From the NCBI RefSeq assembly GCF_000003815.2, contig NC_049995.1, positions 17,580,356 through 17,644,355 of the forward strand: 64,000 nucleotides of DNA, given 5' to 3'. The translations under genes were made by a program, and so were the position numbers. Under the pieces are notes generated by a model. That model made no database searches. It saw nothing but the letters and a program-made list of their open reading frames with translations, and was not told the origin of the DNA. Source of the DNA: Branchiostoma floridae (taxonomy: Eukaryota > Chordata > Leptocardii > Amphioxiformes > Branchiostomatidae). How positions within the stretch are numbered: the first letter of the stretch is position 1; every line of letters starts with the position of its first letter. Positions 1 to 64,000 of the stretch are shown piece by piece.

Positions 1-79
1 CGAGCTAAATTCTTGATTTGTAAACGGGGCTTCATGGGGACCCTATCCTGCATCACTCCTTCCTTCCATCTAACGCTAC
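1..79 (-). CDS. Possible last ligand-binding-domain exon (truncated by window edge)
   Basis: After a GTTTGTGGCAG acceptor the frame required by the upstream phase-1 donor at 605 stays open to base 1. It reads VRWKEGVM and then PMKPRLQIKNLAR, which could be the final strand before the first membrane helix. This rests on phase and openness only; the similarity is weak. Confidence 0.35.
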
Positions 80-3000
80 CTGCCACAAACATCAAGACAC
101 TGTACATGTATGTCAGGGGGAAAAGACGCAGTAATGGAAGTAAAATTCAGACATGGCCGGTCAGTGGATGACAGGCTAATACAGAACATCGATATATTAC
201 TGCAAGTTAGCATAAAGAATGTAACAACCACTGCAGTTAATTCATAGCTTACGTTATAGTTGGTAAAACAAACTACCAATTTATTCAGAAGAGCATAATT
301 TCGTTAATTTCTTCATTTCAACAAACTGACCAAAAATTGGCCCGAAGGGCGCGGTCACATGGGTCGTGCGATCGTCGTACGATTTTTTTGATGCCATAGG
401 ATTTTCAAGCAGGTCGTAACAGAAGATCCAAAACAGCTTTTTGTGTAGCATTAGACAGCTAGACTATGTCGGACACATGCATCACTGTCCCCAAAATGCC
501 CGAAGTTAGCGATCGTACGACGATCGCACGACCTATGTGATCGCGCCTTAAGATGCAAACTGTATGCTCTGCAATACAGATACAGATCAAATCTTGGCCC
601 TCACCTGACTCAGTCTTGTCTGCCTGCTGTACTGAAGACTGGACTGTCAGTCCCGTCAGTTCGAACTGAGACACGACAGCGGTCATGTCGGTGGTGACGG
701 GGCCGGGGGAGCTGAGGGTCTTCGCCGGTTGGAGGGGGAAATTCAGCCCGTTGTCTGCAGAAGAAACCGATAGAGTAATGCTAAAACAACACGTTAGAAC
801 CAGCGTTAGAACATAAAGTATACAATTTATTGCGATACAAGAAAATGTTCATTATACAATTATAGTAATAATAATGAGCAAAATGATAATTGTGCTAACA
901 ATAATAATAGAATTTTTGGCAGATGATGAAGATTTAAATACAATCCACCTCAGAAAACATCAAATAAACATAATTACTACCTGAGAGTATACATACAGTA
1001 CAAGATAGAGTCAGTACAATAGTTGCTTCATGATACAATTTAAAGAATGATTGAATATCCTTACATCCATGAAGTTTGAAGCTACACTCTTGTTTATCCA
1101 TGGGATACCTCGCCATACCGGGCACACACGTCAGGTAAAGGGCCCTCCTGTGGAGGGGGAAATTACCTTGTTGGCATAAGGAGCACTCGTACTTCTAATA
1201 CTGTAGCCCTTTGATATATATGCATAGCATTACATATATCGTAAGTGGTTCATACACATAACACAATTAGGTCCCGTTTTGTTGTCCTTTGAGGAATATT
1301 GAAGAAATTTTCTGAAAGACTCTTAAGATTCTAAAGATTGTCCCTTTTATATATTGAATTGTTTTATAGATATCATAGAGTATATAGATAAACATTGGGG
1401 ATGTTTTTACAAGTGTCTTTATCTTTTGCAGAGCATGAAGTGATTTCAGTCACAACTTAGCAACAGGGCAGGATTGCCACGTGTTGGTCAGCAGATACAA
1501 GAAGAAAACTCACGTCAGTTTGTGGACTAAGATTCCAGACGGATGGAGCCACATGCTGATGTCATGATTGTCTCCTCCTCTCCCTCTCTTGCTCTTCATC
1601 CTCCTAGTGACGTCAGCAGCCCTCCGCACGGCCGGTCCGAACGCCAGAGGAGGCGCCCACATCAAAGCTGCCGGCACTGGGGTCCATTTGGTGGTTAGGG
1701 CGCGGAGCCGGGGGTCTACCCAGGCCATGGTGTACTGTACCGTCACGGACAGGTTCTGTAAACAACAACAAAAACAACAACAACCAATTACATCAAAGGT
1801 GCCGGCACTGATATCGACCCAGGCCACGGTGTAATGTACCGTCACGGAGAGGTTCTGTAAACAACAACAACAACAACAACAACAATCACATCAGAGCTGC
1901 CGGCACGGGTGTCCAGCTGGTGGACAGGCCACGGAGACGGGGGTCAACCCAGGCCATGGTGTACTGTACCGTCACGGACAGGTTCTGTAAACAATAATAA
2001 CAACCCAAGTCAATAATTTTTAACCTCCTTAGGAAGCTCTGATTTTCAAAATGGGCTGAAGTTCTTTAATGCCTAAGTAAGGGAGTTTCTGGTATTTGAG
2101 AACCTTAGCCCATGTAGAAATTTGTGAATCAGCACTTCTGCTAGAAATTGTCTGCAAAAGAGACTAGATGAGGGAAACATTTCTCTGATTTTGAAGTACT
2201 GCTTAATGATAATAATAATGCTTGATAATAGCTTGAAGGCCAGGGAATAGGAGGGGAGTCCAAAGGCGGTGGGAACATGACACTGGTCTATATTCCCACA
2301 AAATGTCATGAAATTTCTGCTCGAGACCAAACAAGTGCAATGGATATCATAAGATACTGACCGCGTGCTCTTCAGACAGAGGTCCAACGTGAAGAATCGT
2401 CACTGTCGATGTCACTTCAAGTTTCTCTCCTGTCAATGAAAAAAAAGAAGGTATCAAGGATGGTTTCAAACTGCAATACATTGGAAATATAAAAACGAAT
2501 ATAACGCTAGTTCACCTATTACCAGGGTTAACCTATATCCGTTATATCGACGGAAGGTGGTTTCTGATTGCAGATATTTTCAAAATATTACAGTTGAAAA
2601 CCACCATCCATCGACATCCATAGGACTGCTTGCCCTGTTTTTAGAGACAACGAATATAGGTTATCCTGCAGATAAAGAAGAACTAGTGTTAGGTTACCAA
2701 TTGAGCGGACAAAGGTGACTACCGTTACACAGAACACCGCCACATACCTACGCCAAATAGCAGTTATTCAAGCAACTGGATATGATTTAGCAAACGGTCA
2801 GACACTTCAGGTAGAACCCACTATCTTTCGTCGATGACGACTTCAGTGGTCACTGACGAAAGGTAGTGGGTTCTGTCTTAAACGTCTGAGTGTTTCCAAA
2901 ATCATATCCAGTTGGTATGAGTAACTGCTGTCTACTCTTATTACTGTAAATGCAGAAATGTTCGCGGTGGATTAACGTTTGCGGTTTTCGCGGTAACCAC

Positions 3001-6000
3001 TTTAACGCGAACTTAAAACCACCGCGAACATTTTTCTATCATGGTATTAGATTGCAGTCTATGGTGTTACCGCGAAATTAAAACACCACAAAAAGTCCTT
3101 TTTCCCGCTACCGCGAAATTAAATCCCCGGGAACTTAAATGCATTTACAGTACCTGGATACTTAAACCTTCATCGACCTGCAGCATACCTGTCTGGGGGC
3201 TGGCGTTGCTGTCGTACCCTCCGGGCATGCGCTGTCCGGATCTCCATCCGTCCCACTCTGCCTGTGTCGCGTTGTCCGCGCTCGCCAGCTCCGACTGGAA
3301 CGCCGAGACGTCTTCAAACATCTTCTTCAAGACGGTCTTCCTTTCTTCCTCCACTTCTGGCAGGACCGTGTCATCGAAAACTCCTGTGGTTGGTACCGAC
3401 GCTGATTCCGATCGCGAAGTGCTTTCCCCCGGTGTTGGCGACCTTGCCCCTAACGACGAGGTGATTTTGTTTGTGGCATGAGATGTACCAGGATGGGATG
3501 GGGTATACGTAGCAGCTGCTGTAGTAGCATCCGTAGCATCAGTAGTGGTAGTTTCAGTAGTAGTTGCTGCATCAGTAGAAGCAGCAGTGCTTGAAGGTGT
3601 AAAAGTGGTAGAATCAGTAGTTACAGTAGTAGTAACAACAGTAGTAGCTAATTCAGTGTAAGTAGCAGCATAAGTAGCGGCAGTAGTAGCTAAATCAATA
3701 GTAGAGGCTACACTAGTAGCAGCAGTAGAAGATGTAGTAGTAGTAGCAGTAGTATCAGCAGTAGTAGCTGGGTTAGTAGTGGTAGCTACAGTAGTATCAG
3801 CAGTAGTAATTGCAGTAGAAGATGAAGTAGCAGTAGTTTTAGTAGTAGTAGTAGTGATAGAAGCTGTAGTAGTCATTACCGCCGTTGTTCGTGTAGTCAT
3901 AGCCGTGGATGAAGGTAGGGCTATAGTAGTTTGGGCTGCAAATTGAAAATGAACAACAACACAGTTGAGGGAAATGTTCTCTGATTTTATGCATACAACA
4001 CGCAGAAAACACAGGGTAAGTCTATCGATTTGAGATACTCGATATTATGTAACTTGAGCGCACTAAATGTATAAGTTTGATTAGTAGACTATGACATGAA
4101 ATATTAGATATGATGTTGACCTTGACATTGCTGTGTCCCCTCCCACTGTCCGCCAGGGCCGCATGTCCTGATGACGTCACCTCCTGCGTCATGATATCCC
4201 GTGATGCACTTGTACCTGCATCTCTCGCAGGTGCATGCTGGGCCAGACTCGACAGTGTGGTCAACGGTTGGAGGCTCGGCACACGCTGTAAAGTCTTTCG
4301 GCAAAAAACGTATTGTTGATTGTCATACATTTGTGTAGAGTCACAGTAAATAAAATCTTCTTATAACAATTATCATTTTATATTCTAGAAAATGGATATA
4401 CTAGCCAGGCGTCTGGAGGCTTAAGAGCGAAGCTGAGTAGAGTACAATCATACTGTCTACTCATTTGTACTAGCCTCCTTCACCAGCCTCTCTGTTATTA
4501 GGCTTTGGTCACAGTAAGTTGTTGGGGGCATAAATATTTGTGGAACCACGTACAGATAGTATGACAACCAGGTTTTCGGAACCCTTCTCAGTTTTGTGTT
4601 CTCAATGTTGCACTTGCCTGTCCATTTTCTGATGTCGTCCATCTTTTCTGTTGTCTATACACAAAGAAAACAGTAACCTACCTGGACAACAGAAGCGGAC
4701 TTCGTAGTCCAAGCAGCTCCCGTCCGCCTGATGGGTATTGTTACAGAAAAAGCCAATTGTTGTGTCGTAGTAGACGAAGGTTTCCCCGGTGAGGGAGGCC
4801 TCCTGTTGGGTGGAGACGACGCGGGCGTGAACTCCTGTGGGATGGGGGCAGATCTGGCCGGGGTTTTCCCTACAGAGGTGGGACAGGAGTTCCCTGTCAC
4901 CTCTCCCACCCGAGCCATCTCGGTTGAACCAGACCGTCCAGTTGTCGCAAGGTTCTGAGATGGGAGAAAGTGCACAGAGTTTTATATCGATGGCTACACA
5001 CACCGGTGCAATGGCCGAGTGGGTAGAGTGTTTGCCTTGCATACGGTAGGTCGTGAGTTCGATCCCCGGCCGAGTCATACCAAAGACTTCAAAATGGTAC
5101 ATGCTACTTTCTCTGCTTAGCACTCAGCACTAATGAGGAAGAGTATGGAAGTTAAACACACATCACTACCAGCAGACCTGCCCCCTGCTGTAGTGACTTG
5201 CACAAATGTGTGGCCCAAGGGCTTCGAAGTGGAGATGGGCGCCACCCTACGCATCTTAGATGTATGGGCAAACTTTAACTTTTAACTACACACACGTTAA
5301 GATTACAATAAAAAAATAGATGTGATGTTCACCTTGACATTGCTGTGTTCCCTCCCACTCTCCATCAGTGCCGCATGTCCTGGTGACGTAACTCCCTGCG
5401 GCATTGGATCTCATGATGCACTTGTACGTGCAGATCTTCCCAGGCCAGTAGGGACAGGTACAGTCTGGGGCAGACTCGGCAGTGTGGGCAAGAGTTGGAG
5501 GCTCGGAACACACTGTAAAGTCTTTCGGCAGAAAAAAAAACAATGAATGTTACGCTCGGTCGTTTATTTGGTGGTTATAGGAACCGACCTTAGATTAAGG
5601 CACTGTGTCCACATTAGGGCGGGTCATTAACTCTTTATTATCATAAGAACTGTTCAATTGTCCTTCTAAAGCAACAGTTTCTTTCAGTCCCGGACAGCGA
5701 AGTTATGGAAATCTCTTGACGACTCTTGTTTCCCTCCTGTCTACAACTTATCAGCCTTCAAAACAATTTTCTGCCGCTATCTCCGTGCACAGTTATTTCC
5801 TTCTTTGTTCTTTTTACTTCTTAGTTCATTGCCTTGAAACGGTCTCTTGACCTTGCTTTGAACGACCTCGAAAAAAAAAGAAGTGGCTTATTACACATTG
5901 TGTACCACTATATATGAAATGCACCTACAAATTATGTTAAATTCCGTATTTCATTTTGATTTCGTTTACTACATGTATATGCAATGTGACCTCGATAACC

Positions 6001-8016
6001 TATGCTTATGAAAGGTGTTACGTCGCTTTTCTGTGCATAGAATCAACTTATGTAACAATAAGCAATATATGTATCTTGGACTATCTTTTCTTAATTATAT
6101 CGCACAGTCAAACCTACCCTTATTCCAATGGTTTCCTATAGTCAACAAAGTTGATGTTCTCGCATTCGGGAAAGTTGCATATTAAAAAACTATCGCCCGA
6201 ATCTGTGGCAATGACGAGTTAGTTTAATAATATTCCGAGTTGTTTGAGTAACTTCTATATTGTGAATATCTTACCTTGTGCACAGTTAAACCGGAACTGC
6301 CCATTCGGGTCGTTTGCCCCGTACCCCACGTAGTTGATTTCCTTGGGATTGTTGTCGGTTGTTGCCATGAACGGTTCAGTCTCTCCATCTCTCCCCACCG
6401 CTATGTACATGTTGTTGTTCCCCCTTTTCCAGCAGATCCAGAAGCGTCTAAAGTCGTTTGGCGACAGAATACCTGCATGGGGATAGAAATGGAATAATGT
6501 TTGATAGAACAAGGCTAGGGCCAATTCTGCAAGCATGAGTTAACACTGTCACTGTATCCAATTCCCATCATTTTAGAGTTTATAGACAATAGATACAAAA
6601 TCCGGAAATTCAGCTGCAGAACCAAAGTCAGCCGTCAGGAAGCGTCTTTCAACACACACAACACAAACAAGAGCTGAAACACACACGCGCACACACACAC
6701 ACATTCACATGAACACACAATACAGATTCAAACAGACACACACACTCCAACACACACACACAAGCGCACAGATACACAATCCAACACACACACAGAAGCA
6801 CACAGACACACAATCCAACACACACACACACAAGCACACAGACACACACACAGACACACACACTCCAACACACACACACAAATACGCACACACACAAATA
6901 CGCACACACACTCCAACACACAAGCATACCCACACAGACACACACACATACGCCACGGTGCATATGCACACGCACACACACCACACACACACACATGCAC
7001 TGAGACACACACACACACCAAATACTATGCCGCCATTTTTGTTGGAGATAATCAACTTGAGTATTTACCTGATGTATTTACTTTTTTCCAGCTTGGATTG
7101 ATGCTCGACCTGGTATTCCAGTCAATCCCGATGTGAACCTCATATTGCTGACCAACACCAAGGAACCTGTTCTCTGCAGACAGAGTGATGTGAATCCGGC
7201 CCTCACTACGTGCCTCGAACACAACAGGTTGGCGCACGGGTGAGAAGACGGTTTGCAAGTCAAATGCATAATTGCGCCACGAGTCGTTGTTGTAGAAGGC
7301 CTTTGTTTCTGTGCAGGATGCTGGACAAACGAAAATATGTATAACAACTCTACAAATCTTGACAAGCATGTTTAAATTTACAAAAATTGGAACTGTAACG
7401 TTAGATATGTACCTGTAGATGCCATATTTTCATTGTATTACAACAGCCTGTATTGGCAGGGTATACAACAAATATCATCAGTTAAATGTATCATTATAAT
7501 TTATTATTATTTAATCAAGAGTTGACAAATTGCATGGACAGGGTTTGATAAATTTGAGTTTGGTTGGAAGCCTTAAAAAGAAATCTTAAACCTTATAAGA
7601 AAAAATCTTAAACCCAGCAAAGTCTAATAGATGTCAACAAAGGGTTTTATTGATATTCTAAATGACGCGTAAATTCAAAATAAACAGCCTCTATGCGCTA
7701 ATGCTTTCACAATAGATGAGCAGGGAAATTTGTGAGTAATAAATTATTCACAAGCAGGTCTTTTCTTACACGGGAATTTCATTAGTCACGCAGGTAAAAT
7801 CACATCAAACATGGTGTAAAATACGTTTATGTGTGTGTGCGTGCGTGTACGTGTCAGTGTGTGTGTGTGCGTATGTGTGTCTGTGTGTGTGTACATATGT
7901 GTGTGTGTGTACATGTGTGTGTGTGTGTGAGTGTTTTTCTGTGTGTGTGTGTCTGTGTGTACATGTGTGTGTGTGTGTGTGTGTGCACATTGTGTGTGTG
8001 AGTGTGAGTGTTTTTC

Positions 8017-8059
<43 letters not shown>

Positions 8060-11000
8060 GTGTATGCTTGTTTGTGTGTGACGTTTTCACATTTTACATT
8101 TTGACAGAATGTTATGAAATTTATTTGATCTTAATACTACAGATATCTTTTTAAGAAACCTACTGTCTCTATTGCATCCCAAGAGCTCGACCCTCATGCT
8201 GATCCACTCAGACTGCCAAGTGAGAGGGTAGAACCGCACGTAACGTGCGTCTACCGGGTGGTCCAACAGGTTGGTTACGGGGGTGTCCTTGTCCGTGTTA
8301 CCTGGGAACACCTGCAAAACAGGTACAGGAGTTAACTCCGCTTCACCTTTATCCTTGGGGTAACCTATATCCGTTGTTTTTAAAGGGAGAGCATCTAGGT
8401 ACACCAAAACGACAGACGGTGTTTTAAATTCTAGCTATAGAACTGTAGTTATGTAGAAGCCATACTTTGTACCTTGTACAATTGTTGTGCGATAAAGTTA
8501 TTATTTAATGTTTTCAAACTATCGCAGTTAATTTTCAAATTTTATAGACACCATCCGTTTACCTGAAACATCAACATGCCATGTCTTTGAAAATGACGGA
8601 TATAAGTTACCCCACGGATAATGGTGAACTAGCGTTATATCGTCATTGGTTGGTTTCCATTTGGGACATCATAGTTCAAGCCCCGACCGGCCAAGCATCT
8701 ATGGTTGACTACTTTAGGTTAGGGACGTAACTCGGATATGGCGTTAGATGAAGTTCCTGTGTTTGAGGAGAGCCACACCTCGAGCACGTCATTAAAGAAC
8801 CCACCACACTTTTATCGTCAGTAAAAGACGACATGTCTTCAAACTGTTATTGTTATGTCAATGCAGAGATAAGTTGTACTTGAGCACCGACAACAACCAA
8901 ATCACTAATTACAAAATAAAGCAACAATTCTTTATTAGCTGGACTGTCAGTTCAAATGTTCTCCTTCCAAATATTTATGGAAAAATAAAAGAGAAAAGTA
9001 CAGTTTAAAGTTTAACGTTCTTCCAACAACAAAGTATACACGGACCACTGTCACCACGTTCAGGATCAATACTGTATATAACAGTAACTGTAGTATTGAT
9101 CAATACATCAGTATTGATTCTTTAGAATCAATACAAAATTTGATCAGAGCGCGTTGGAAGGAAGTTTGGCAATTTACTATATAATGATAAACACACATGA
9201 GCTTCCATCATGATGATAATAAGTGAAAAGTACTAAATATACGTAATGTCAGTGTCTGGGATACCTTTTCTTCGCCATTGTTGTGTCTGTAGATCTCCAA
9301 ACTGTCCTCCTCTATGCCATGCTGTAGTGCGAATGACGTCACCCACGCATCGTACCAGCCACGTCCCTGGATAATGGTGCCCGTCAGTCGCTTCACTTCT
9401 CCCAAATCCACCTGAAAAATTTGTCACGCAATATAATGCACATCATAGACGAAAATAGCTTCGAATAGATCTCCCTTTCCAGCCACTATCCTGGAGTATT
9501 GATTGGAATACTACGATTCTATTTTACACTGTAACCGTAGTTCACCTTTGTACGCAGGATACCTATATCCGTTTATTTTAACAGACTCTGAGTATCAGTT
9601 AGAGATATCAAGTGGTTTCAAATTACACTTTTTTCAAAACGGCATTTGAGGATATCAAGTCAACGGACGAAGGTTAGAAACTGCGATATTTTGAAAGTAT
9701 AGAGATTTTTAGGAGTTTGAAACCACCACATAATATTCCATCGCCTTGATAATTCCCTTCAAGCCCTGTTTGAAAACAAAACAATCGATATACTATAGGT
9801 GAACTTGAGCGTAATACATTATGAAACAATTTTAAACTTTATATCCAAACATAAAAATAAAGCCCTTACCAACAAGCTTTTGATCAGTCCTCTGATCATT
9901 TTTAAGTTCGAAAGCTAATTGTTGGTAAGCGCTTTATTTTTGTGTACGGTTATAAAGTTTTAAAAATTGTTTCATAATGTTGATTTACCGTCACAGACGA
10001 ACAAATACCCGAGTATAGTGTCAGTCTGTGTTATAACTGTTACAGTATATGGTCAAATGGGCAGACAAATGTTGGAATTGAAAAGAAGTCAATGTCCCAA
10101 CGTTAACTGTGAGCCGACACCTGTCAGTATCTCTAATATGTTAAGTTCATTAATATTGTGATATCCCTACCTGCAGCCACTGCCCGATGTTGTTATTTTC
10201 AGCTCGCCACGCCTTCATGTTCTTGTTTAACCGAGCGTAGTGAGACTTGTAATTGCCGTTAAATTCTGACGATGCGGTGATGCGTTCATCAGGTATGGCT
10301 CCAGATTCCATCCCAAGTGGACCATGGCAAGCTGGAAGACAAAGAGAGGAGTTACCCCTAAGATGTCTTGTGAAAAAGCACATGTGGAAAGAGTGATTTC
10401 TACACCGTGTAGTCTCAGGGAAGAGAAACAATAACCTGTAGCTTAAATACTGTGGCTTTTTAAGACATTCTTCACTCCAGAGAAGAGTGTTATTTTCTAA
10501 AAGACAACATTTTTATGAACACTGGCCAAGTTCAATGTCAAGTGGCCGATACAATTACGTTTTGGGATTCAGAAAAATATTACTAGCAGAAATGGAACAC
10601 TCTCCTCTGGAGTACATTAAGTCTTAAAGCGTCATTCTTTAACTAACTCAGGTTTGGGCATGAATTGTAAGAACCGAATACTGATGACTTCCAGATCAAC
10701 TTTGCCAGCGTAAAGTTTTAATCCTGCAAAGTAGAAATATATTTCAAAGTAATGTCAGAATGTCCTGAAATCGCTTCACAACAAAATAAAAGAGTGTCAT
10801 TTTCTAAATGCCTTGGAAATATGAATTGGCTGTTTCCACAACAGACGAGCCGGGTAATTTGTGAGCAATAATTTATTCATAAGCAGGTATTATCATTACA
10901 CAGGAAATGGCATTGGTACACAGGTAACAGTCGTCATCAAACATTCTGTAAGCTTCCGTTACAGAATGCTTGATCTGTCAGATACAGAATTTTTATAAGG

Positions 11001-14000
11001 TGTAGGCTAAAGGGTTAACACAACCTCCGTGACATTTTGCACACAAGTTAGTACAACAGACTCCGCTGGTATGACCTGGTGCAAAGAATGACCCATGAGT
11101 ATTGACAATTGGCCAAGAAAGGTCATGAACTTGTCTGTAGTGGGTCAGAATCCTCCTAGCCACCTCAAGATGAGATGGGTAGACAGTGTCAAGGAAGATA
11201 TTCGAAACTGAACATGCAAAAAGCCAAATATTCTTCTGGAGATCAGCAATAAGACCTAATGGCATCCCGTAATGTCCAACCCTTGCATGACACGGAACAA
11301 TCAATGCTAATCCTGGTAGTGAGTGAATCATCAAGGAATACACTAATACTACCAGGATTACATGCTGTATTCTTCCTTTCACACGAGAGGGGGAATGAGC
11401 CAGAACGCCGTCTGAATAAAAAATCTTTGTATATTCCAGCTGGATATTTGTAGTGCATTCTAGAAATTCTAACTCGTCCACAGTTGTGTACCTGTAAATG
11501 TACTACTTTGTACCTTGTACAATTGTTGTGCAATAAAGTTGTTGTTATTGTTGTCATTGTGCGGGCCAGGGGCTGAATTGCGAGGAGACTACAATAGGCG
11601 AGGATATAGAAGAACTTGCACGACAATTGTACATGGTACAATGTATGGCCACGACTATTACACAAAGTACAAATTAGATGTATAGAATGACTTAACATCA
11701 TAATTAACATAATGATAAGGGCTAATACAAGTTTTTGATATTTGTGACAAGGGTCTGGAGCGGCTGCAATTTGGCGCCACTCAGGTGACCTCAAAAGTAG
11801 TTGCGGTTATTACTAAGTATGAAATTATAAAACATTCCACTATAGCACACGTATACATAAACTGCTAGCTCACCTTCTTCGCAGTACTTTCCTTTCCATC
11901 CAGCCGGGCACGAACAGGAGTACAGCCCAGTGCCCGACCCCTCTGGGGTTACTGTTCCGCCATTTTTACAGCTTCCTGACAAAAATAAGTACAATGGAAT
12001 GGGTTGAATTATATTGTAGCATCTTCACATCCATTGTTTTTTCAGTTTGATCACTTCCCTGTCTAATCGTAGGAGTTAGCACTGCACGTACGACACATTG
12101 TATCACTAAAAACAAAACAAAAAGTTATTTCTAGTGTTGGAAAATATAGTTCACCTTTTTCCAGGCAACACTGAACATGTCGCGTATAATAATTAAAAGG
12201 CCCAATAATGAACCATAATGTAACACGGGGTACATTGTACGTTGCATTGTTAGGCTATGTCACCATTCGTGACAAGTAGCATGAAATAAGGGTTGGGGTA
12301 AGAGAAGCATTCGCAAGCAAATAATAATTGAAAAAATAAAGATTAGAAACAGAATGAAATAAAAAAAAAAACGATGAAAGAAAACTAGAGGAGAGGACAA
12401 CAATTGTGATATTTTCCTTCTATTCAACTCCACCCTGCCTTTAAGTTATCAATTCGAGCAGGTAAATATGATATCATTTGGCATAATGCGCGCTGAACCA
12501 AGGAATATTTTAGTGCGATGGTGTTATCAATTATGATAATATTTGTAAGGCGATATATTGCATACCGTGATCTAGTTGACAAATGAATGGATGCGTCTGG
12601 CTGCATGGCAGATCAATCCACGCAGACCCACTATACCCGATGGCAGCACAGTCTTCTTCATTGTTCACATTGTTTGGTTCGCCGATTCCCCAGAAGCCTG
12701 TTGACTCCAGGGTTTGTCCGTCCTCAAACACCCAACGGCCTTCGGTGTCGATGTCATTCAGGCCGATCCAGTGGATTCCGTTTCCTAGTCCGACGATAAA
12801 GTCGTTGGTCGCGCTGTCTCTCGGCATGGCCAACAGTCCCCCGTCTGAGGCACAGGTCTCTCTGGCCTGAAAGTAGGTCTCCCCCCCAGCAAAGTGCTTG
12901 TAGCAAACCCCGTTAAAACGACTGTAGCCTGGCTTTGGACACCCTGTAGTGTAGAGGGAAGAAAAAAATTTGTTATTTATTAAAATCTTTAGTTATTAGT
13001 AAGCATCACTCTTCGACTAAATAGGTGCGAAATGTAGGTTCCTTGCTTAGGAGGTAAATAGAGAGGTCAGAAAGTAGGAATTGTATATCAAAAGTGGGGC
13101 TACCAATAGTTAATAAATGATAATTTCATTAACGCATGTTTACAAAATTCCAATCTTTGTTGCAATCTATGGCAAATGTAACGTCTTTCAAGTACTTGTC
13201 TTGTAGTATTTGATTCGTTTGATTCGTTTGACACAAATGATGTACCAAACACACTTACATGGGTAATCAGTAGGCCTGATCATCACCATTACTTTCTTCA
13301 ATGAGTAACGGTACCCCCTCCAGGTTTTCCAGACGATGCCTTGAGCATGCTCGCAATTGGCGTTACATCCGGCCAGATACTGCCCGTTTAACATGGCGTA
13401 ACCACAGCTTGGCGGGTACCACCAACCACCCTTTCCATTTACGGCCGCACAGCTGTAAATGTTGTTGTCGTTGTCTTGGTCCTTGGTGCTGAACTTCTGG
13501 TTGTTCATGTTGAACCGCCCGTTGTCGTAGTTTGACGTTATGCTATCCGTGGCGTTGCCGCTGTACCCACTGACTGTAGCCGTGTACGTGCTTTCTGCAT
13601 TTGAATGAATGAATGAATGAATGGATGGATAGATGGATGGATGGATGGGTGTGTGGGGGGGGATGGATGGATGAATGAATGAATGAATGTATGAATGAAT
13701 GAATGAATGAATGAATGAATGAATTTGGGATACCAAATCGACAGGCGGTGTTTTCAAATCGCAATATTTTCCAAAAATTGCAGTTATTTTCAAAATGTTG
13801 CACCGTCCGTTGACTTGATACATCTAACTGCCATGTTTTTAAAAATGACAGATAAAAGTTACCCCACGGATAAAGGTAAACATACCTGCATCTCTCACAG
13901 AAAACTCGCTGTACTTCGCGAACATACTCTCTCCTTCCCAGTCCTCCAGAGAGATGTACAGTTCGTGACTTTGCTGTGCGGTGAGGCGGTGTAAACGGTC

Positions 14001-15629
14001 CAGTCCGAGCCAGAACTCTCCGCTGACGTTCCCGAATCCCTGCAAGTAATGGTTCGAAAGGGGAGTTAGAGAGGCAATATACGAGAAGAATGTACAACCC
14101 CATCCTTAACAGGAAAGGAGACCTACGGATCGAACTTTCCGGCACTTGGGACCTCCCCCCCCCCCCCCCAAGAGACAATATTAGTAATCTCTAGGCTTCT
14201 CTAGGCAGATGTGGCATAAGGAGTTTAGCTGGCCAAGGAGTGTTCTGAGCCACCAGGGCTCAAAACACTTCTCACCCAGCTAAACTCCTTATGCCACCGG
14301 TACATCTGCCTAGAGATTAAATATTTAGCTCCTGTACTCCAACAAAATAGACCTTGGTTTGCCTATTGGATCATATTGCCGGCCGAGTCCCCTGGCATAC
14401 TATTCAGTCTACTTGGCCAATTTCCATTACTTGCCCATCGATCCGCGGAGCCTGGTAGAGGCTATAAGTAACTGTTATTTGGCGTACCTGCACGTACTGG
14501 TCCCAGGTGTTGTCGAACGGCACCGACCCGTCTTGCCGTCGCTGTATGACCGTCCACCCGCCGCCATCCGTGTCCATGTCACAGGACACCTGGAACGGTT
14601 CCGGGTAGCCAACAGAGTACGTGCCGCTTTCCTGTACCCCGAGAATGTACAGATCCGCACAGTTCTGGGGAGCCACCCTTCCTACAGAAGGACACAAGAA
14701 AAGTCAACATTTTTCAAGATATAAAAGACGGCGATCGCGATGCGCTCTCACTGCGAACTAAATATGATATGTGTAGCCTCTGATTTCATACTGGGTATAT
14801 AGTACAGCATGTAAAAGTGTGACTGAGAGGACAGCAAAACGCACAAAGTGTAAAAAAAATCGTTTCTTTTCTCATGTTGTTGAGCGATCTGTCAAATTCT
14901 ATGTCGCAGAGAGAGCACAGCGAGAGCGCCGTCCTATTGGATATGGGATATTATTGATTTGACAATTATTAACAACATCCTTAATATTAACTTAAGTACC
15001 CATCATGACAAACTAAGTGTCTAAAGTCTTGTTGTACAGCGACGCAAGTCTGTGGCTAGAGTCTATATTTCATAAGATATCAATGTAATGCACTTTTACA
15101 GCCCGATGATCACTGAGGTTAGGGCCAACATCAAATACTTTGCTTCCTTAAACTAAGCAAGCTATGAAATGCTTTTCAGATTAATAAGGTGTAATTCAAA
15201 GATACAAAAATCTAAACGACCAATGTGAATACGAGTTACCCGACTTGAAAAAAAAAGTCTTGAGTACTTCGAGTTCTTGTGATTAACACCATGGAACACT
15301 GCAATATTTTTGTATAAAACTGAAGATTATTCAATGAACATAGAGACTGAATCCGGATCGATCATGGTTGAAACAAGCCAAACAAGAGAAAGAATCACTC
15401 ATTGGCTTAATTCTAAACTATTAGACAGGACAATTTTTAAAACTAAATGGCGGATGAAATTACAAACAGATCTTAACAAAAGCTGCAAACACTCGCACAA
15501 TAATGGAACAAAACTCGACACATTTATAAAGTACAGAAAACATTTCTTACCGGACGGTGGTTCAGAAGAGTCGACTAGAAAAATGGCAAACGCAACGGCA
15601 ACAGCCAAGCCTAGACCCAACCTGGCCAT
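1..15629 (-). CDS. Chimeric Cys-loop receptor-like protein with lectin/fibrinogen/discoidin/sushi ectodomain (3' end outside window)
   Basis: Exons read on the minus strand: 15551-15629, 14488-14681, 13886-14039, 13259-13594, 12566-12943, 11874-11975, 10171-10331, 9265-9411, 8164-8311, 7069-7320, 6275-6472, 5333-5512, 4682-4954, 4121-4285, 3189-3935, 2362-2429, 1514-1755, 1065-1147, 605-754 and possibly 1-79. Every junction has GT/AG borders and the phases agree throughout, giving about 1352 residues before the tentative last exon. Domain order: signal peptide, fibrinogen C-terminal, C-type lectin, EGF, F5/8C, FAMeT, sushi, WxxW, sushi, mucin, Cys-loop ligand-binding domain. Nearly all module borders are phase 1, as expected of exon-shuffled extracellular modules. 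Inference: a surface receptor whose large recognition ectodomain is fused to a ligand-gated channel binding domain. The channel membrane segments would lie left of base 1, so a secreted binding-protein form cannot be excluded. I know no named orthologue. Confidence 0.82.
605..2429 (-). CDS. Cys-loop (pentameric ligand-gated channel) ligand-binding domain
   Basis: Exons 2362-2429, 1514-1755, 1065-1147 and 605-754 join in phases 1-0-2-1-1. Family marks in order: a beta-strand pair ending PLSEEHA, then MAWVDPRL (W.D.RL), MWAPPLAF, WLHPSGILVHKL, a Cys loop CVPGMARYPMDKQEC with exactly 13 residues between cysteines and the usual P-x-D pattern, and SQFELTGLTV. This is the extracellular agonist domain of nicotinic/GABA/glycine-type receptors. 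The exon at 1514-1755 is preceded by two partial copies of itself, at 1984 and 1854. The ligand cannot be predicted. Confidence 0.87.
1790..1984 (-). repeat. Two partial upstream copies of the ligand-binding-domain exon
   Basis: Copies of the 5' part of the exon at 1514-1755, each with its own TTTACAG acceptor, begin at 1984 and 1854 (the full exon begins at 1755). All three start NLSVTV. The first copy runs into TGA after about 30 codons. The second is 99 bp (33 codons) upstream of the complete copy and stays in frame with it. Each acceptor is preceded by a TTG-type microsatellite (GTTGTTGTT...) that may serve as its pyrimidine tract. Confidence 0.85.
2502..2694. mobile_element. MITE-like element, family A (copy 1)
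   Basis: Inverted termini of the form ACGCTAGTTCACC...GGTAACCTATATCCG on the left and their reverse complement on the right. The same termini recur at 8325-8637, 9536-9813, 13735-13885 (partial) and 33060-33277. No open reading frame; non-autonomous DNA element by inference. Confidence 0.75.
2757..2936. mobile_element. Inverted-repeat element, family L
   Basis: Long inverted repeat: CAACTGGATATGATT on the left is matched by AATCATATCCAGTTG on the right, and AGAACCCACTA by TAGTGGGTTCT in the centre. A diverged relative with the same GCAACTGGATA start lies near 54725-54850. Confidence 0.65.
2942..3152. mobile_element. MITE-like element, family B (copy 1)
   Basis: Bounded by TACTGTAAATGCA and TGCATTTACAGTA. 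The interior carries repeated GCGGT/ACCGC blocks (CGCGGTAACC, ACCGCGAA) giving internal pairing. Same family at 16991-17196 and about 52010-52325. Confidence 0.75.
3189..3935 (-). CDS. Thr/Ala-rich mucin-like exon with charged tail
   Basis: One long exon (747 bp, phase 1-1, 249 residues). The first two thirds are almost entirely Thr, Ala and Ser with runs such as TTTTTK and ATTAATYA, expected to be heavily O-glycosylated and extended. The last third changes to an acidic and then helical-looking segment (LPEVEEERKTVLKKMFEDV) followed by WDGWRSGQRMPGG, leading into the ligand-binding domain. The DNA is a degenerate trinucleotide repeat, so length polymorphism is likely. Antisense open frames over this exon are by-products. 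Confidence 0.8.
4121..4285 (-). CDS. Sushi (CCP) domain 2
   Basis: A phase 1-1 exon of about 55 residues with CAEPPTVDHT at the start, RYKCITGYHD in the middle and CGPGGQWEGTQQC at the end. It shares intron-exon flanks with the sushi exon at 5333-5512, including the poly-T plus CCGAAAG upstream of ACTTTACAG. It lacks the long internal insertion of the first copy. Confidence 0.82.
4682..4954 (-). CDS. WxxW domain (mucin-2/CILP type)
   Basis: The exon encodes about 91 residues, phase 1-1. It opens with EPCDNWTVWFNRDGSGG and GDRELL, contains CPHPTGV and GFFCNN, and ends CLDYEVRFCCPG. This is the WxxW module of gel-forming mucins and cartilage intermediate layer protein: CDxWTxWF(N/D)xD at the start and CxDYEVRxxC at the end. 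Its placement between two sushi modules and before a mucin-like segment is unusual. Confidence 0.85.
5005..5285 (+). mobile_element. tRNA-derived SINE, family A
   Basis: Head resembles a tRNA with an A box (TGGCCGAGTGG) and a B box (GAGTTCGATCCCC), followed by a non-tRNA body containing GTGGCCCAAGGGCT and GGAGATGGGCGCC and an AACTTTAACTTTTAA tail. The outer arms do not form an acceptor stem, so this is a SINE and not a tRNA gene. Related copies or fragments are near 45240-45975 (minus), 28570-28620, 49640-49720, 59930-60410 and 61290-61400. Confidence 0.8.
5333..5512 (-). CDS. Sushi (CCP) domain 1
   Basis: A phase 1-1 exon of about 60 residues reads VCSEPPTLAHT at its start and CGTDGEWEGTQQC at its end, with an internal YKCIM, the normal CCP layout. 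The first part carries an extra CTCPYWPGKIC insertion with additional cysteines. The acceptor could lie nine bases upstream, after a poly-T tract and CCGAAAG, which would add three residues in the same frame. It is a close copy of the sushi exon at 4121-4285, with matching flanks, so the two arose by duplication. Confidence 0.8.
6275..7320 (-). CDS. Farnesoic acid O-methyltransferase-like (FAMeT) domain, two exons
   Basis: Exons 7069-7320 and 6275-6472 give about 149 residues in phase 1-1-1. Features of the Methyltransf_FA family are a YAFDLQ...VVFEARSEGRIHITLS strand pair, YEVHIG, a central FWICW and MYIAVGRDGE, then INYVGYG near the end. The family is named after a crustacean enzyme but the domain is found as a non-enzymatic extracellular module in many invertebrate surface proteins; I infer a binding role. 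The intron between the two exons holds a CA-rich microsatellite at 6650-7020. I chose the donor at 7068 (TCAG then GTAAAT) over one at 7081 because only it keeps phase. Confidence 0.78.
6650..7020. repeat. CA/TG-rich microsatellite
   Basis: About 370 bp of imperfect CA dinucleotides with interspersed CTCCAACACAC blocks, in the intron that splits the FAMeT domain. Open frames over it are artefacts of the repeat. Confidence 0.95.
7830..8080. repeat. GT-rich microsatellite
   Basis: About 250 bp of GT repeats with TTTTTCTGTG and GTACATGTG interruptions, in the intron between the F5/8C and FAMeT exons. Confidence 0.95.
8164..10331 (-). CDS. F5/8 type C (discoidin) domain, three exons
   Basis: Exons 10171-10331, 9265-9411 and 8164-8311 join in phases 1-0-0-1 to give about 152 residues, one full discoidin domain. 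Motifs in order: ACHGPLGMESGAIPDERITA (start of domain, first Cys), ITASSEF, WRAENNNIGQWLQVDLGE, TGTIIQGRG, WVTSFAL, VFPGNTD and ARYVRFYPLTW with a terminal RVELLGC. These domains usually bind phospholipids or glycans at membranes. The introns carry inverted-repeat elements at 9536-9813 and 8325-8637. Confidence 0.9.
8325..8637. mobile_element. MITE-like element, family A (copy 2), with nested retrotransposon-type tail
   Basis: Left terminus TTCACCTTTATCC...GGGTAACCTATATCCG, right terminus CGGATATAAGTTACCCC...GGTGAACTAGCG. It is about 100 bp longer than other members because TTTGTACCTTGTACAATTG and a GATAAAGTTATT tail, also seen at about 11500-11540, sits inside. It begins about 15 bp upstream of the acceptor of the exon at 8311. 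Confidence 0.65.
9536..9813. mobile_element. MITE-like element, family A (copy 3)
   Basis: Termini GTAGTTCACCTTTGTACGC and ATAGGTGAACTTGAGC with the family ACCTATATCCG block inside. Lies in the intron before the second F5/8C exon (in transcript order, after it at 9265). Confidence 0.6.
9822..9980. mobile_element. Short hairpin element
   Basis: Inverted repeat of about 70-bp arms: CATTATGAAACAATTTT on the left, AAAATTGTTTCATAATG on the right, with AATAAAGC and GCTTTATT and then ACCAACAA/TTGTTGGT inside. A compact foldback element in an F5/8C intron. Confidence 0.7.
11480..11560 (+). mobile_element. 3' end of a non-LTR-like element
   Basis: TTTGTACCTTGTACAATTG, TGCAATAAAG and a GTTGTTGTTATTG tail. 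The same end is present near 8450-8500 inside another element. Upstream sequence to about 11250 may belong to the same decayed element; no domain is recognisable. Confidence 0.45.
11874..11975 (-). CDS. EGF-like exon lacking the C1-C3 disulfide
   Basis: A 102-bp symmetrical phase-1 exon encodes SCKNGG followed by CSCPAGWKGKYCEE, clearly an EGF module. Only four cysteines are present. Aligned to the family they are C2, C4, C5 and C6; the position of C3 (GGTC in typical modules) is Val, and no C1 is seen before SCKNGG. Both partners of the C1-C3 bond are therefore missing while C2-C4 and C5-C6 remain, which suggests coordinated loss rather than random decay. Confidence 0.8.
12566..12943 (-). 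CDS. C-type lectin domain exon
   Basis: One exon of 378 bp, phase 1 to phase 1, encodes a complete long-form C-type lectin domain of about 125 residues. It has six cysteines (the N-terminal hairpin pair plus the two canonical pairs), WIGLND, the sugar-site tripeptide EPN within WGIGEPNNVNNEEDC, and the final CSQTHPFIC. In the family EPN goes with mannose/GlcNAc-type calcium-dependent binding. The usual WND motif reads WID here, so one calcium ligand (Asn) is replaced by Ile; sugar binding may be weakened. The domain sits between fibrinogen and EGF modules. Confidence 0.9.
13259..14681 (-). CDS. Fibrinogen C-terminal-like domain, three exons
   Basis: Exons 14488-14681, 13886-14039 and 13259-13594 together give about 228 residues, the usual length of a fibrinogen-related domain. 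Visible hallmarks are the N-terminal Cys followed by GGGWTVIQRR, FWLGLDRLHRLT, a calcium-type acidic cluster (DQDNDNN), GGWWYPPSCGYAMLNGQY, and a C-terminal stretch with a Trp, YSLKKV and IRP. Such domains bind acetylated sugars and other pathogen or self ligands in ficolins and tachylectins; that role here is inferred. The block starts and ends in phase 1. The middle exon donor touches an inverted-repeat element, and a TGAA microsatellite precedes the last acceptor. Confidence 0.88.
13600..13728. repeat. TGAA/TGGA tetranucleotide microsatellite
   Basis: GAATGAATGAATG runs flank a GGATGGATGGAT core. The array lies directly upstream, in transcript direction, of the acceptor at 13594, so TTCATTCATTC supplies the pyrimidine tract of the last fibrinogen exon. 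Confidence 0.95.
13735..13885. mobile_element. MITE-like element, family A (right half), abutting a splice donor
   Basis: Only one terminus is clear: GATAAAAGTTACCCCACGG and ATAAAGGT just before the donor of the exon 13886-14039. The first roughly 40 intron bases correspond to the family terminal repeat. Confidence 0.55.
14184..14319. mobile_element. Hairpin MITE
   Basis: Near-perfect inverted repeat: TAATCTCTAGGC...GCATAAGGAGTTTAGCTGG on the left mirrored by CCAGCTAAACTCCTTATGC and GCCTAGAGATTA on the right. In the first intron between the two fibrinogen exons. Confidence 0.8.
15551..15629 (-). CDS. Signal-peptide exon of the chimeric receptor
   Basis: The chosen ATG is at 15629-15627. It opens a 26-residue leader with a short polar start, a hydrophobic core (LGLGLAVAVAFAIFLV) and a polar end rich in Ser, Glu and Pro, typical of a cleaved secretory signal. 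The exon ends in phase 1 at a good GTAAG donor, matching the phase-1 start of the fibrinogen exon at 14681. No other ATG in frame lies between this one and the next exon. The presumed promoter lies at about 15650-15800; I see no convincing TATA box there. Confidence 0.75.
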
Positions 15630-62000: not shown

Positions 62001-63965
62001 GGTCAGTTCTTAGGGTCACAGGTCAGTTCTTAGGGTCACAGGTCACCAAGTACTAAAGGTCAGTTCTTAGGGTCACAGGTCAGTTCTTAGGGGGCAGGTC
62101 ACCAAGTACTTCAGGTCAGTCCTTAAGGTCGCAGGTCATAGGTCAGTTCTTAGGGGGCAGTTGTACTTCAGGTGTGTTCCTAGGGGGGATGCTAGGGGTG
62201 GATCCACATAGATCAAGTTTCTGAACTTCTATTCAGCCTGTCAAACCAGTTTCATTGCGTACAACTTCTTCGGGGGATAGAGCCTTATTGACACAAGTTT
62301 GTGAAGCTCTCTCTCTCTTAGCCTGATTAAATCTCGCTTATAGCAGCCCGCCAAACATCCGCCGGCCCTCTATTTACTGGTTTCCATGGTAATGTGGGCT
62401 CAACCTTAATCCTGGCCTACCATTGGTGTTGAAACATTCCACAACAGTTTCCTCAGCTTATAGCTAGTGGAGCACAAACTCCGCGGGAGGGGCCAGTTAC
62501 AGCCCTGGACAGCGGAGTTTGTGTTACACAGACTATCTCTCTCTGTTCATTCTGTTATATCTGACTCTTTCCCTCCTTCCATCCAGTGAACAACACTCTG
62601 CCTATCTAGCCATGGTGGGTTCCCTGGTCAGTATAGTGCTGGTGGTGCTGTTTATTCCTTTATATGTGACTCTTTCCTTCCCTCTCTCCAGTGAACAACA
62701 CTCTGCCTACCTGGCCATGGCGGGTTCCCTGGTCAGTATAGTGCTGGTGGTGCTGTTTATTCCTTTATATGTGACTCTTTCCCTCTCTCCCTCCAGTGAA
62801 CAACACTCTGCATACCTAGCCATGGCGGGTTCCCTGGTCAGTATAGTACTGGTGGTGCTGTTTATTCCTTTATATGTGACTCTTTCCCTCCTTCTCTCCA
62901 GTGAACAACACTCTGCCTACCTGGCCATGGCGGGTTCCCTGGTCAGTATAGTACTGGTGGTGCTGTTTATTCCTTTATATGTGACTCTTTCCTTCCTTCT
63001 CTCCAGTGAACAACACTCTGCATACCTAGCCATGGCAGGTTCCCTGGTCAGTATAGTACTGGTGGTGCTGTTTATTCCTTTATATGTGACTCTTTCCCTC
63101 CCTCTCTCCAGTGAACAACACTCTGCCTACCTGGCCATGGCAGGTTCCCTGGTAGTATAGAACTGGCGGAGCTGTTTATTCCTTTATATGTGACTCTTTC
63201 CCTCCTTCTCTCCAGTGAACAACACTCTGCCTACCTGGTCATGGCGGGTTCCCTGGTCAGTATAGTACTGGCGGTGCTGTTTATTCCTTTATATGGGACT
63301 CTTTCCTTCCTTCTCTCCAGTGAACAACACTCTGCATACCTAGCCATGGCGGGTTCCCTGGATCAGTATAGTACTGGAGGTGCTGTTTATTCCTTTATAT
63401 GAGACTCTTTCCCTCCCTCTCTCCAGTGAACAACACTCTGCCTACCTGGCCATGGCAGGTTCCCTGGTCAGTATAGTACTGGTGGTGCTGTTTATTCCTT
63501 TATATGTGACTCTTTCCCTCCTTCTCTCCAGTGAACAACACTCTGCCTACCTGGCCATGGCAGGTTCCCTGGTCAGTATAGTACTGGTGGTGCTGTTTAT
63601 TCCTTTATATGTGACTCTTTCCCTCCTTCTCTCCAGTGAACAACACTCTGCCTACCTGGCCATGGCGGGTTCCCTGGTCAGTATAGTTCTGGTGGCGCTG
63701 TTTATTCCTTTATATGTGACTCTTTCCCTCCCTCCCTCCAGTGAACAACACTCAGCCTACCTTGCCATGGCGGGTTCCCTGGTCAGTATAGTACTGGTGG
63801 TGCTGTTTATTCCTTTATATCTGACTCTTTCCCTCCCTCTCTCCAGTGAACAACACTCTGCCTACTTGGCCATGGCAGGTTCCCTGGTCAGTATAGTCCT
63901 GGTGGTGCTGTTTATTCCTTCTAACACCAAGGCTGGGAAAAAGGACTCAGATTCCAAGAAGGAGG
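59044..63965 (+). CDS. SLC22A18: MFS transporter, SLC22A18 (ORCTL2/TSSC5)-like, 5' half
   Basis: Exons 59044-59111, 59537-59663, 60448-60545, 61071-61216, 61765-61897 and 63847-63965 with matching phases; the gene continues beyond the window. The start is the first ATG after a CTGCAG acceptor-like site (MAATGETAAMDG); an upstream exon is possible. Visible: helix 1 (KLVLLMTHLNIAMYS); YLTKKLGVDPVVYGYLQTTF; helix 2 ending GGPLFGR; MFS motif A-like FGDLFGTRSAL; helix 4 with LSRLPSFLMHSMQ; GAQMIVTDISDEGNRADALG; helix 5 GIGMIVGPFLGG; helix 6 AYLAMAGSLVSIVLVVLFIP; and a Lys/Asp-rich loop. Vertebrate SLC22A18 is a putative organic cation transporter in an imprinted tumour-suppressor region. Two minisatellites made from this gene's own splice edges lie between 61870 and 63850. 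Confidence 0.9.
59968..60332. mobile_element. Harbinger-like MITE, family C (copy 3), nested in a SINE
   Basis: GGCCACACCAATTTAATTTC to AAATTAAATTGGTGTGGCC, TGA on both sides. Flanking sequence is a reverse SINE family A fragment in which an intact copy reads GCTGAGTGCTAAG, so removing the element and one TGA restores it. In SLC22A18 intron 2. Confidence 0.9.
60545..60582. repeat. TTTG microsatellite beginning at a splice donor
   Basis: About nine GTTT units start at the donor of the exon 60448-60545, which therefore reads CG followed by GTTTGT. Confidence 0.9.
61870..62170 (+). repeat. Minisatellite derived from the donor edge of SLC22A18 exon 61765-61897
   Basis: Irregular copies of GGTCAGTTCTTAGGGTCACA and GGTCACCAAGTACTTCAG. 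The exon end itself (CTTAGGGGGACAGGTCACC, AAGTACTTCAG then GTCAGT) is the first member, so exon end plus donor has been copied downstream at least six times. Confidence 0.88.
62578..63910 (+). repeat. 105-bp minisatellite of an SLC22A18 exon acceptor edge, 13 copies
   Basis: The acceptor G of each copy is at 62586, 62691, 62796, 62901, 63006, 63111, 63215, 63320, 63426, 63531, 63636, 63741 and 63846. Each has a CTCTCTCCAG acceptor followed by about 70 exon bases coding SEQHSAYLAMAGSLVSIV and VLFIP, then intron-type TTTATATGTGACTC. Only the last copy reads on into the exon (SNTKAGKK) and a donor. Spacing is 105 bp (35 codons) except 104 and 106 at two places. Confidence 0.95.
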
Positions 63966-64000
63966 GTAAGTTTCAATTCTTACAAATTACTATTACAGTG

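Follow-up and report, generated by a model that had tools for sequence, protein, structure and literature searches.

Pentameric channels with additional extracellular domains at their N terminus are described from prokaryotes, with DeCLIC as the structural example (PMC9897478, PMC549065), and according to PMC9897478 no eukaryotic homologue of these channels has been observed to carry N-terminal domains. In the text of PMC4795631, the evidence for other domains associated with the channel architecture is confined to the genome level. For lancelets, the main text of PMC4967905 mentions an ortholog pair, 269420_PRF0, with a novel architecture that includes Neur_chan_memb and other domains left unnamed there, and its authors leave open whether such novel lancelet architectures are real. 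That hint aside, our literature search, with subscription journals and supplementary files outside its scope, found no title or abstract opening that describes a lectin-headed Cys-loop channel. Polycystin-1 and adhesion GPCRs place a membrane signalling core beneath a long shuffled ectodomain.

Here, we analyse a stretch of 64,000 nucleotides of the 513-Mb genome of Branchiostoma floridae (C17:17580356-17644355, hereafter the window). It probably holds most of one Cys-loop subunit gene of the GABA-A/glycine branch, on the minus strand, with about 1100 residues of shuffled extracellular modules before the ligand-binding domain (LBD); from this layout we infer how the protein would assemble, carry a stalk, bind and gate. 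A minus-strand chain of 19 exons from 15629 to 605, with borders chosen by hand and then checked, keeps consistent phases. All 18 introns within the window start with GT and end with AG, and the joined in-window frame runs for 1352 residues without a stop. From the N to the C terminus, the order is signal peptide, fibrinogen-like, C-type lectin, EGF, F5/8C, FAMeT, sushi, WxxW, sushi, mucin and LBD, as listed below with whole-protein E values for Pfam and with identities to a tandem paralog.

15551..15629, minus strand: exon 1, start codon and signal peptide (MARLGLGLAVAVAFAIFLV...), hydrophobic at residues 1-19 by hydropathy; donor GT, leaves phase 1; 18 of 26 residues identical in the paralog
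13259..14681, minus strand: exons 2-4 (14681-14488, 14039-13886, 13594-13259), fibrinogen-like domain; Pfam Fibrinogen_C 3.6e-66
12566..12943, minus strand: exon 5, C-type lectin domain; Pfam Lectin_C 1.2e-20
11874..11975, minus strand: exon 6, EGF-like domain; Pfam EGF PF00008 22.4 bits, just above the cut-off of 21.5
8164..10331, minus strand: exons 7-9 (10331-10171, 9411-9265, 8311-8164), F5/8 type C domain; Pfam F5_F8_type_C 4.9e-27
6275..7320, minus strand: exons 10-11 (7320-7069, 6472-6275), FAMeT domain; Pfam Methyltransf_FA 1.5e-19
5333..5512, minus strand: exon 12, sushi domain 1, weak alone (5334-5510; Pfam 14.7 bits, below the cut-off of 20.7)
4682..4954, minus strand: exon 13, mucin-2 WxxW domain; Pfam Mucin2_WxxW 5.4e-19
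4121..4285, minus strand: exon 14, sushi domain 2 (4122-4283; Pfam Sushi 23.1 bits, above the cut-off of 20.7)
3189..3935, minus strand: exon 15, mucin stretch and N-terminal part of the LBD (about 3381-3189), the latter with counterparts at related loci
2362..2429, minus strand: exon 16, first strand of the LBD; 22 of 22 residues identical in the paralog
1895..1984, minus strand: truncated tandem copy of exon 17 that ends in a stop; 27 of 30 residues identical
about 1855-1790, minus strand: second, more broken copy of exon 17, from reading the sequence
1514..1755, minus strand: exon 17, LBD (NLSVTVQYTMAWVDPRL...), by Pfam; 62 of 80 residues identical in the paralog
1065..1147, minus strand: exon 18, Cys loop (C, 13 residues, C; YPMD), by exon chain and Pfam
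605..754, minus strand: exon 19, LBD beyond the Cys loop, by exon chain

The phase-consistent chain of modules that the first-pass annotation had read on this strand is thus borne out in its phases, borders and Pfam domains, with one border to be moved: it had started the LBD at the exon at 2429-2362, whereas the true start lies inside the mucin exon (3935-3189), whose last part at about 3381-3189 has counterparts upstream of the LBD exons of related loci (by tblastn, at C9 by eye only). The first sushi domain aligns with the second over 60 positions at 57% identity (E 3.5e-17). The lectin of exon 5 bears an EPN motif, which we take to be typical of mannose-type lectins, and the mucin stretch of exon 15 comprises 185 residues rich in threonine, serine and alanine (73 T, 24 S and 33 A).

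To the left of the window edge lie 4143 N, inside intron 19; these bases, perhaps an assembly gap, could hide exons. Beyond them (stretch L009, C17:17572000-17581999, where the window position equals the L009 position minus 8356), four more exons follow in matching phase, each continuing the frame, and then a stop codon:

-4499 to -4651 on the window scale, minus strand: cysteine-rich insert exon
-5124 to -5338 on the window scale, minus strand: exon with beta-10 and M1-M2
-5698 to -5805 on the window scale, minus strand: M3 exon
-6387 to -6572 on the window scale, minus strand: exon with M4 and the stop codon

The extension to the left and search for four membrane helices that had been suggested from the window alone therefore leads through M1-M2, M3 and M4 to a stop. 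All 23 exons (19 in the window and 4 to its left) are open with GT-AG borders, and together they encode 1572 residues. At the genome level, this is not a secreted lectin or fibrinogen-related protein without a membrane part, as the frame runs into M1-M4.

Neur_chan_LBD matches the in-window protein with 44.1 bits (2.1e-11) and the channel part with 45.2 bits (cut-off 26 for both), and Neur_chan_memb matches the channel part with 55.4 bits (cut-off 28.1). The Cys loop proposed earlier is present, with two cysteines 13 residues apart (C-VPGMARYPMDKQE-C) and the aromatic-Pro-x-Asp motif as YPMD. Hydropathy picks out M1, M3 and M4 as well as the signal peptide, and M2 is placed by alignment only. 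Against the PDB, the channel part matched 120 sequences, the best being GABA-A beta-1 (6dw0, E 4.9e-24), and the best 60 of these 120 comprise GABA-A, glycine and GluCl channels and a pH-gated chloride channel; at least among those 60, GABA-A and glycine receptors appear to be its closest solved relatives. The link between M1 and M2 reads NARV, where canonical channels of this genome (C6, C7 and C14) have PARV, and we take both to be pore links of the anion type. A functional anion channel is the probable product.

The gene shares with GABA-A and glycine receptors the LBD, a 13-residue Cys loop with (F/Y)PxD, M1-M4 and an anion-type pore motif, and differs from them by the roughly 1100 residues of modules in front and by a cysteine-rich insert in loop C. 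With polycystin-1 and adhesion GPCRs it has a long ectodomain in common, whereas the membrane core is different, and Pfam finds neither a GAIN nor a TRP-type domain in the in-window protein or the channel part. Extra extracellular domains before the LBD are a feature that it shares with prokaryotic channels such as DeCLIC, as far as these are described in the sources cited above; their N-terminal domains differ, however, as the lancelet modules are of animal lectin type and Pfam, at E up to 0.01, detects no PBP-I, Cache or MCP-N domain in the in-window protein. The likeness to 269420_PRF0, taken from its main-text mention only, is that of another lancelet architecture called novel with Neur_chan_memb in it (PMC4967905). 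The first-pass annotation had not been aware of any description of the architecture, which agrees with the statement on eukaryotic homologues in PMC9897478 and, given the mention of 269420_PRF0 in PMC4967905, is only nearly right. Its interpretation is supported in part: at the genome level, modules of the recognition type and a complete Cys-loop subunit are joined in one gene, while a sensory or immune receptor whose pore is opened by glycan binding would be a further, hypothetical step.

That modules and channel are fused in a single gene is, on the genomic evidence, very probable. The best evidence is exon 15, as the mucin stretch and the N-terminal part of the LBD occupy one open exon. False fusions do occur among lancelet gene models, and the text of PMC4967905 gives an example with Lectin_C. 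By this known type of error, two neighbours on the same strand might have been wrongly joined here, a secreted multi-lectin protein (exons 1-14) and a channel that begins with exon 15 or at an internal start, and the in-frame ATGs before exons 13 and 16 (5042 and 2481) would offer such starts. We consider this highly improbable. The intron between exons 14 and 15, from sushi 2 to mucin, measures only 185 bases and holds neither an ATG in frame with exon 15 nor an AATAAA or ATTAAA. The ATG at 2481 is followed by a weakly hydrophobic stretch and would drop exon 15, the last part of which recurs at related loci. In addition, the paralog repeats the arrangement, and at four more loci the last module lies within 334-516 bases of the channel N-terminus.

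A scan of introns 12-16 together with exon 15, directed at starts, leader-like hydrophobic stretches and AATAAA or ATTAAA, found a single such hexamer, the ATTAAA at position 2070 in intron 16. A second scan covered in-frame ATGs in unspliced read-through before exons 2-19, scored by simple hydropathy as a 12-residue peak. Such ATGs precede 6 of the 18 internal exons (4, 7, 10, 11, 13 and 16). Their peaks range from 0.45 to 2.18, where exon 1 reaches 3.12, and none is convincing as a signal-peptide start. Just upstream of 2429, where a promoter and signal peptide would have spoken for a separate channel gene according to the first-pass annotation, the sole in-frame ATG is that at 2481, with a peak of 1.0 against 3.12 and at the cost of the LBD part in exon 15. 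The in-frame ATGs do not weaken the argument from exon 15. The most hydrophobic of them, at 5042 before exon 13 (peak 2.18), sits in an apparent repeat with similar sequence in L009. Translation might in principle also begin there, which would remove the lectin heads but leave WxxW, sushi 2, mucin and channel in place.

Such a start, alternative splicing or shedding might also yield a separate soluble lectin and a head-less channel from the one gene. Many module exons are phase 1-1 and could be skipped without a frame shift, and the ATG at 5042 is in frame with exon 13, yet no scanned start comes near the hydrophobic peak of exon 1 (at most 2.18 against 3.12, by simple hydropathy on unspliced read-through), and we regard separate products as rather unlikely.

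A second gene starts about 1.6 kb beyond the stop codon and opens with a near copy of exon 1. It encodes a signal peptide, a C-type lectin (Lectin_C 9.4e-21), an F5/8C domain (2.7e-13), mucin, LBD, the cysteine-rich insert and M1 to M4, with 100 N between its F5/8C and mucin exons; as predicted from its exons, it follows the plan of the window gene with fewer modules. Over eleven segments, the two genes differ by a dS of 0.318 and a dN of 0.120. Their nine channel segments give, by our own sums and with the full-length one of several M3 copies, a dN of 0.085 and a dS of 0.30, and their C-type lectins a dN of 0.24 and a dS of 0.41; the channel is under tighter constraint than the lectin.

The paralog (L010) also contains a second signal-peptide exon between its lectin and F5/8C exons, with an early stop and the GT donor kept, which is likely a trace of unequal exchange between the tandem genes. 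At the paralog lie six short M3 copies beside one full copy, and four partial M4 matches follow just past it (L010 1878-987; L043 9973-9377); these and the exon 17 copies of the window look like exon-plus-intron minisatellites. The locus might instead be a decaying series of duplicated exons and genes that yields no working product, which would suit the truncated exon copies (exon 17 in the window, M3 and M4 at the paralog) and the broken signal-peptide exon. Against this stand the 23 exons that are open with GT-AG borders and the dN of the channel segments, well under dS, and we consider decay very unlikely.

Searched against the genome, an M1-M3 query gave 73 matches, canonical channels included, and a ligand-binding query gave 38. 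Lectin-type, EGF or other extracellular modules lie upstream on the same strand at nine of ten family loci, with the window gene and its paralog counted and with C2:11.13 Mb, C2:14.28 Mb and other copies on C4 and C9 left out of the count. The other eight loci are the following:

C19:3.68 Mb: EGF array (11 tblastn matches) plus a C-type lectin whose second half passes Pfam at 29.2 bits, with no Pfam match for its first half
C2:10.77 Mb: EGF array (15 tblastn matches)
C2:10.79 Mb: EGF array (8 tblastn matches)
C2:10.82 Mb: EGF array (11 tblastn matches)
C5:26.30 Mb: EGF array (12 tblastn matches)
C2:11.115 Mb: two Fibrinogen_C domains in part (2.5e-33 at best), of which the nearer lies, by our arithmetic, some 1 kb upstream of the LBD N-terminus; membrane exons with weak matches (E about 8e-4)
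C9:3.49 Mb: Pentaxin (8.6e-21) and F5/8C (Pfam cut-off narrowly passed by the first half and missed by the second), then a Thr/Ser-rich stretch, an LBD exon (2.8e-14; 14 bits in Pfam when alone) and an M1-M2 exon (1.1e-15)
C4:11.006 Mb: the tenth family locus, no module within 3.5 kb upstream

Two EGF repeats, one each from C19 and C5, were put through Pfam, and each passes the cut-off of one EGF model. At four loci (C5, C2:10.77, C2:10.79 and C19), 334-516 bases separate the last module motif from the first conserved N-terminal residues of the LBD; inspected by eye, the borders are phase 1 on either side, which also holds for the window gene. As a control, we searched 12 other Cys-loop loci (13 stretches) with the module queries: 11 of the 12 gave no match and one (L055) a weak F5/8 match (E 0.004). 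The comparison is uneven in that the queries are family sequences, visual inspection was added for the family loci, and only about 1.5 kb of upstream sequence was covered for 8 of the 12 controls. Genome-wide, Neur_chan_LBD matches at least 156 times when counted by exon, with clusters at C2:26.40-26.50 Mb, C3:12.22-12.44 Mb and C13:11.57-11.70 Mb, and Cys-loop genes seem expanded.

Loop C normally caps the agonist site. A cysteine-rich exon of 51 residues is placed in this loop, between beta-9 and beta-10, at seven loci, and C137 has a fainter relative; the insert query gave 8 matches in the genome, two of them at E above 0.1. In the alignment of six of the seven sequences (C2:10.82 Mb, nearly the same as C2:10.79 Mb, was left out), seven cysteines are invariant and the eighth is shifted. 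From the Cys-loop region to beta-10, the protein is about 55 residues longer than 6dw0 by our arithmetic. The insert found no match in the PDB up to E 10 and no Pfam family above cut-off. Below threshold, Toxin_12 appeared for two of six members (best E 0.05) and Defensin_int for one of six, and we believe neither. Where the canonical agonist cap would be, there is a cysteine-rich exon without a known family, which makes a pocket of the ordinary GABA or glycine type doubtful, and, because the insert sits in the normal agonist cap, binding of a ligand in the standard way is unlikely.

We propose that five subunits would assemble as an anion channel, with the mucin stalk raising multi-lectin heads off the membrane. 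The heads may then bind glycans, mucus or microbes polyvalently, which we see as their most likely role, and such binding could either tether the channel at these surfaces or pull on or crowd the ligand-binding ring and so alter gating. Gating of the pore by head binding and mere anchoring of the channel are, in our view, about evenly balanced. That the heads take part in ligand sensing or gating at all falls, in our estimate, only just short of an even chance.

If the heads were anchors only, the ectodomain would place the channel in mucus, matrix or cell contact, and a small ligand or proton would open the pore conventionally. The heads vary by locus (the lectin and FAMeT set, EGF arrays, fibrinogen, pentraxin) while the channel stays recognisable, as expected of interchangeable targeting parts, and a Thr-rich stalk also fits. 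It is the cysteine-rich insert at seven loci that speaks against pure anchoring: it occupies loop C, the usual agonist cap, so the usual agonist pocket is altered. We hold anchoring alone to be possible, at somewhat less than an even chance. More tentatively, and on balance improbably, an animal Cys-loop family may have swapped neurotransmitter sensing for pattern recognition, with lectin, fibrinogen, pentraxin and EGF heads that vary by locus, sense glycans or microbes and gate a chloride current through the ligand-binding ring, whose loop C would serve as a disulfide-rich coupling module.

If the proposed fusion of heads and channel is true, animal channels with large and varied recognition heads would break the rule, as worded in PMC9897478, that N-terminal domains are confined to prokaryotic channels, and would show a fast channel core wired to extracellular recognition modules via exon shuffling. 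They may also reveal a chloride-based sensing route in what would be surface or immune cells of an invertebrate chordate.

Elsewhere in the window, two further coding-like segments were seen by eye: a Rab-type GTPase exon (NTGQERFGNMTRVYYKEAVGAFVVFDVTRASTF) at 44954-44610 on the minus strand and, at 62468-64000 on the plus strand, a tandemly repeated unit (SSEQHSAYLAMAGSLVSIVLVVLFIPLY) similar to a membrane-transporter exon in duplicate.
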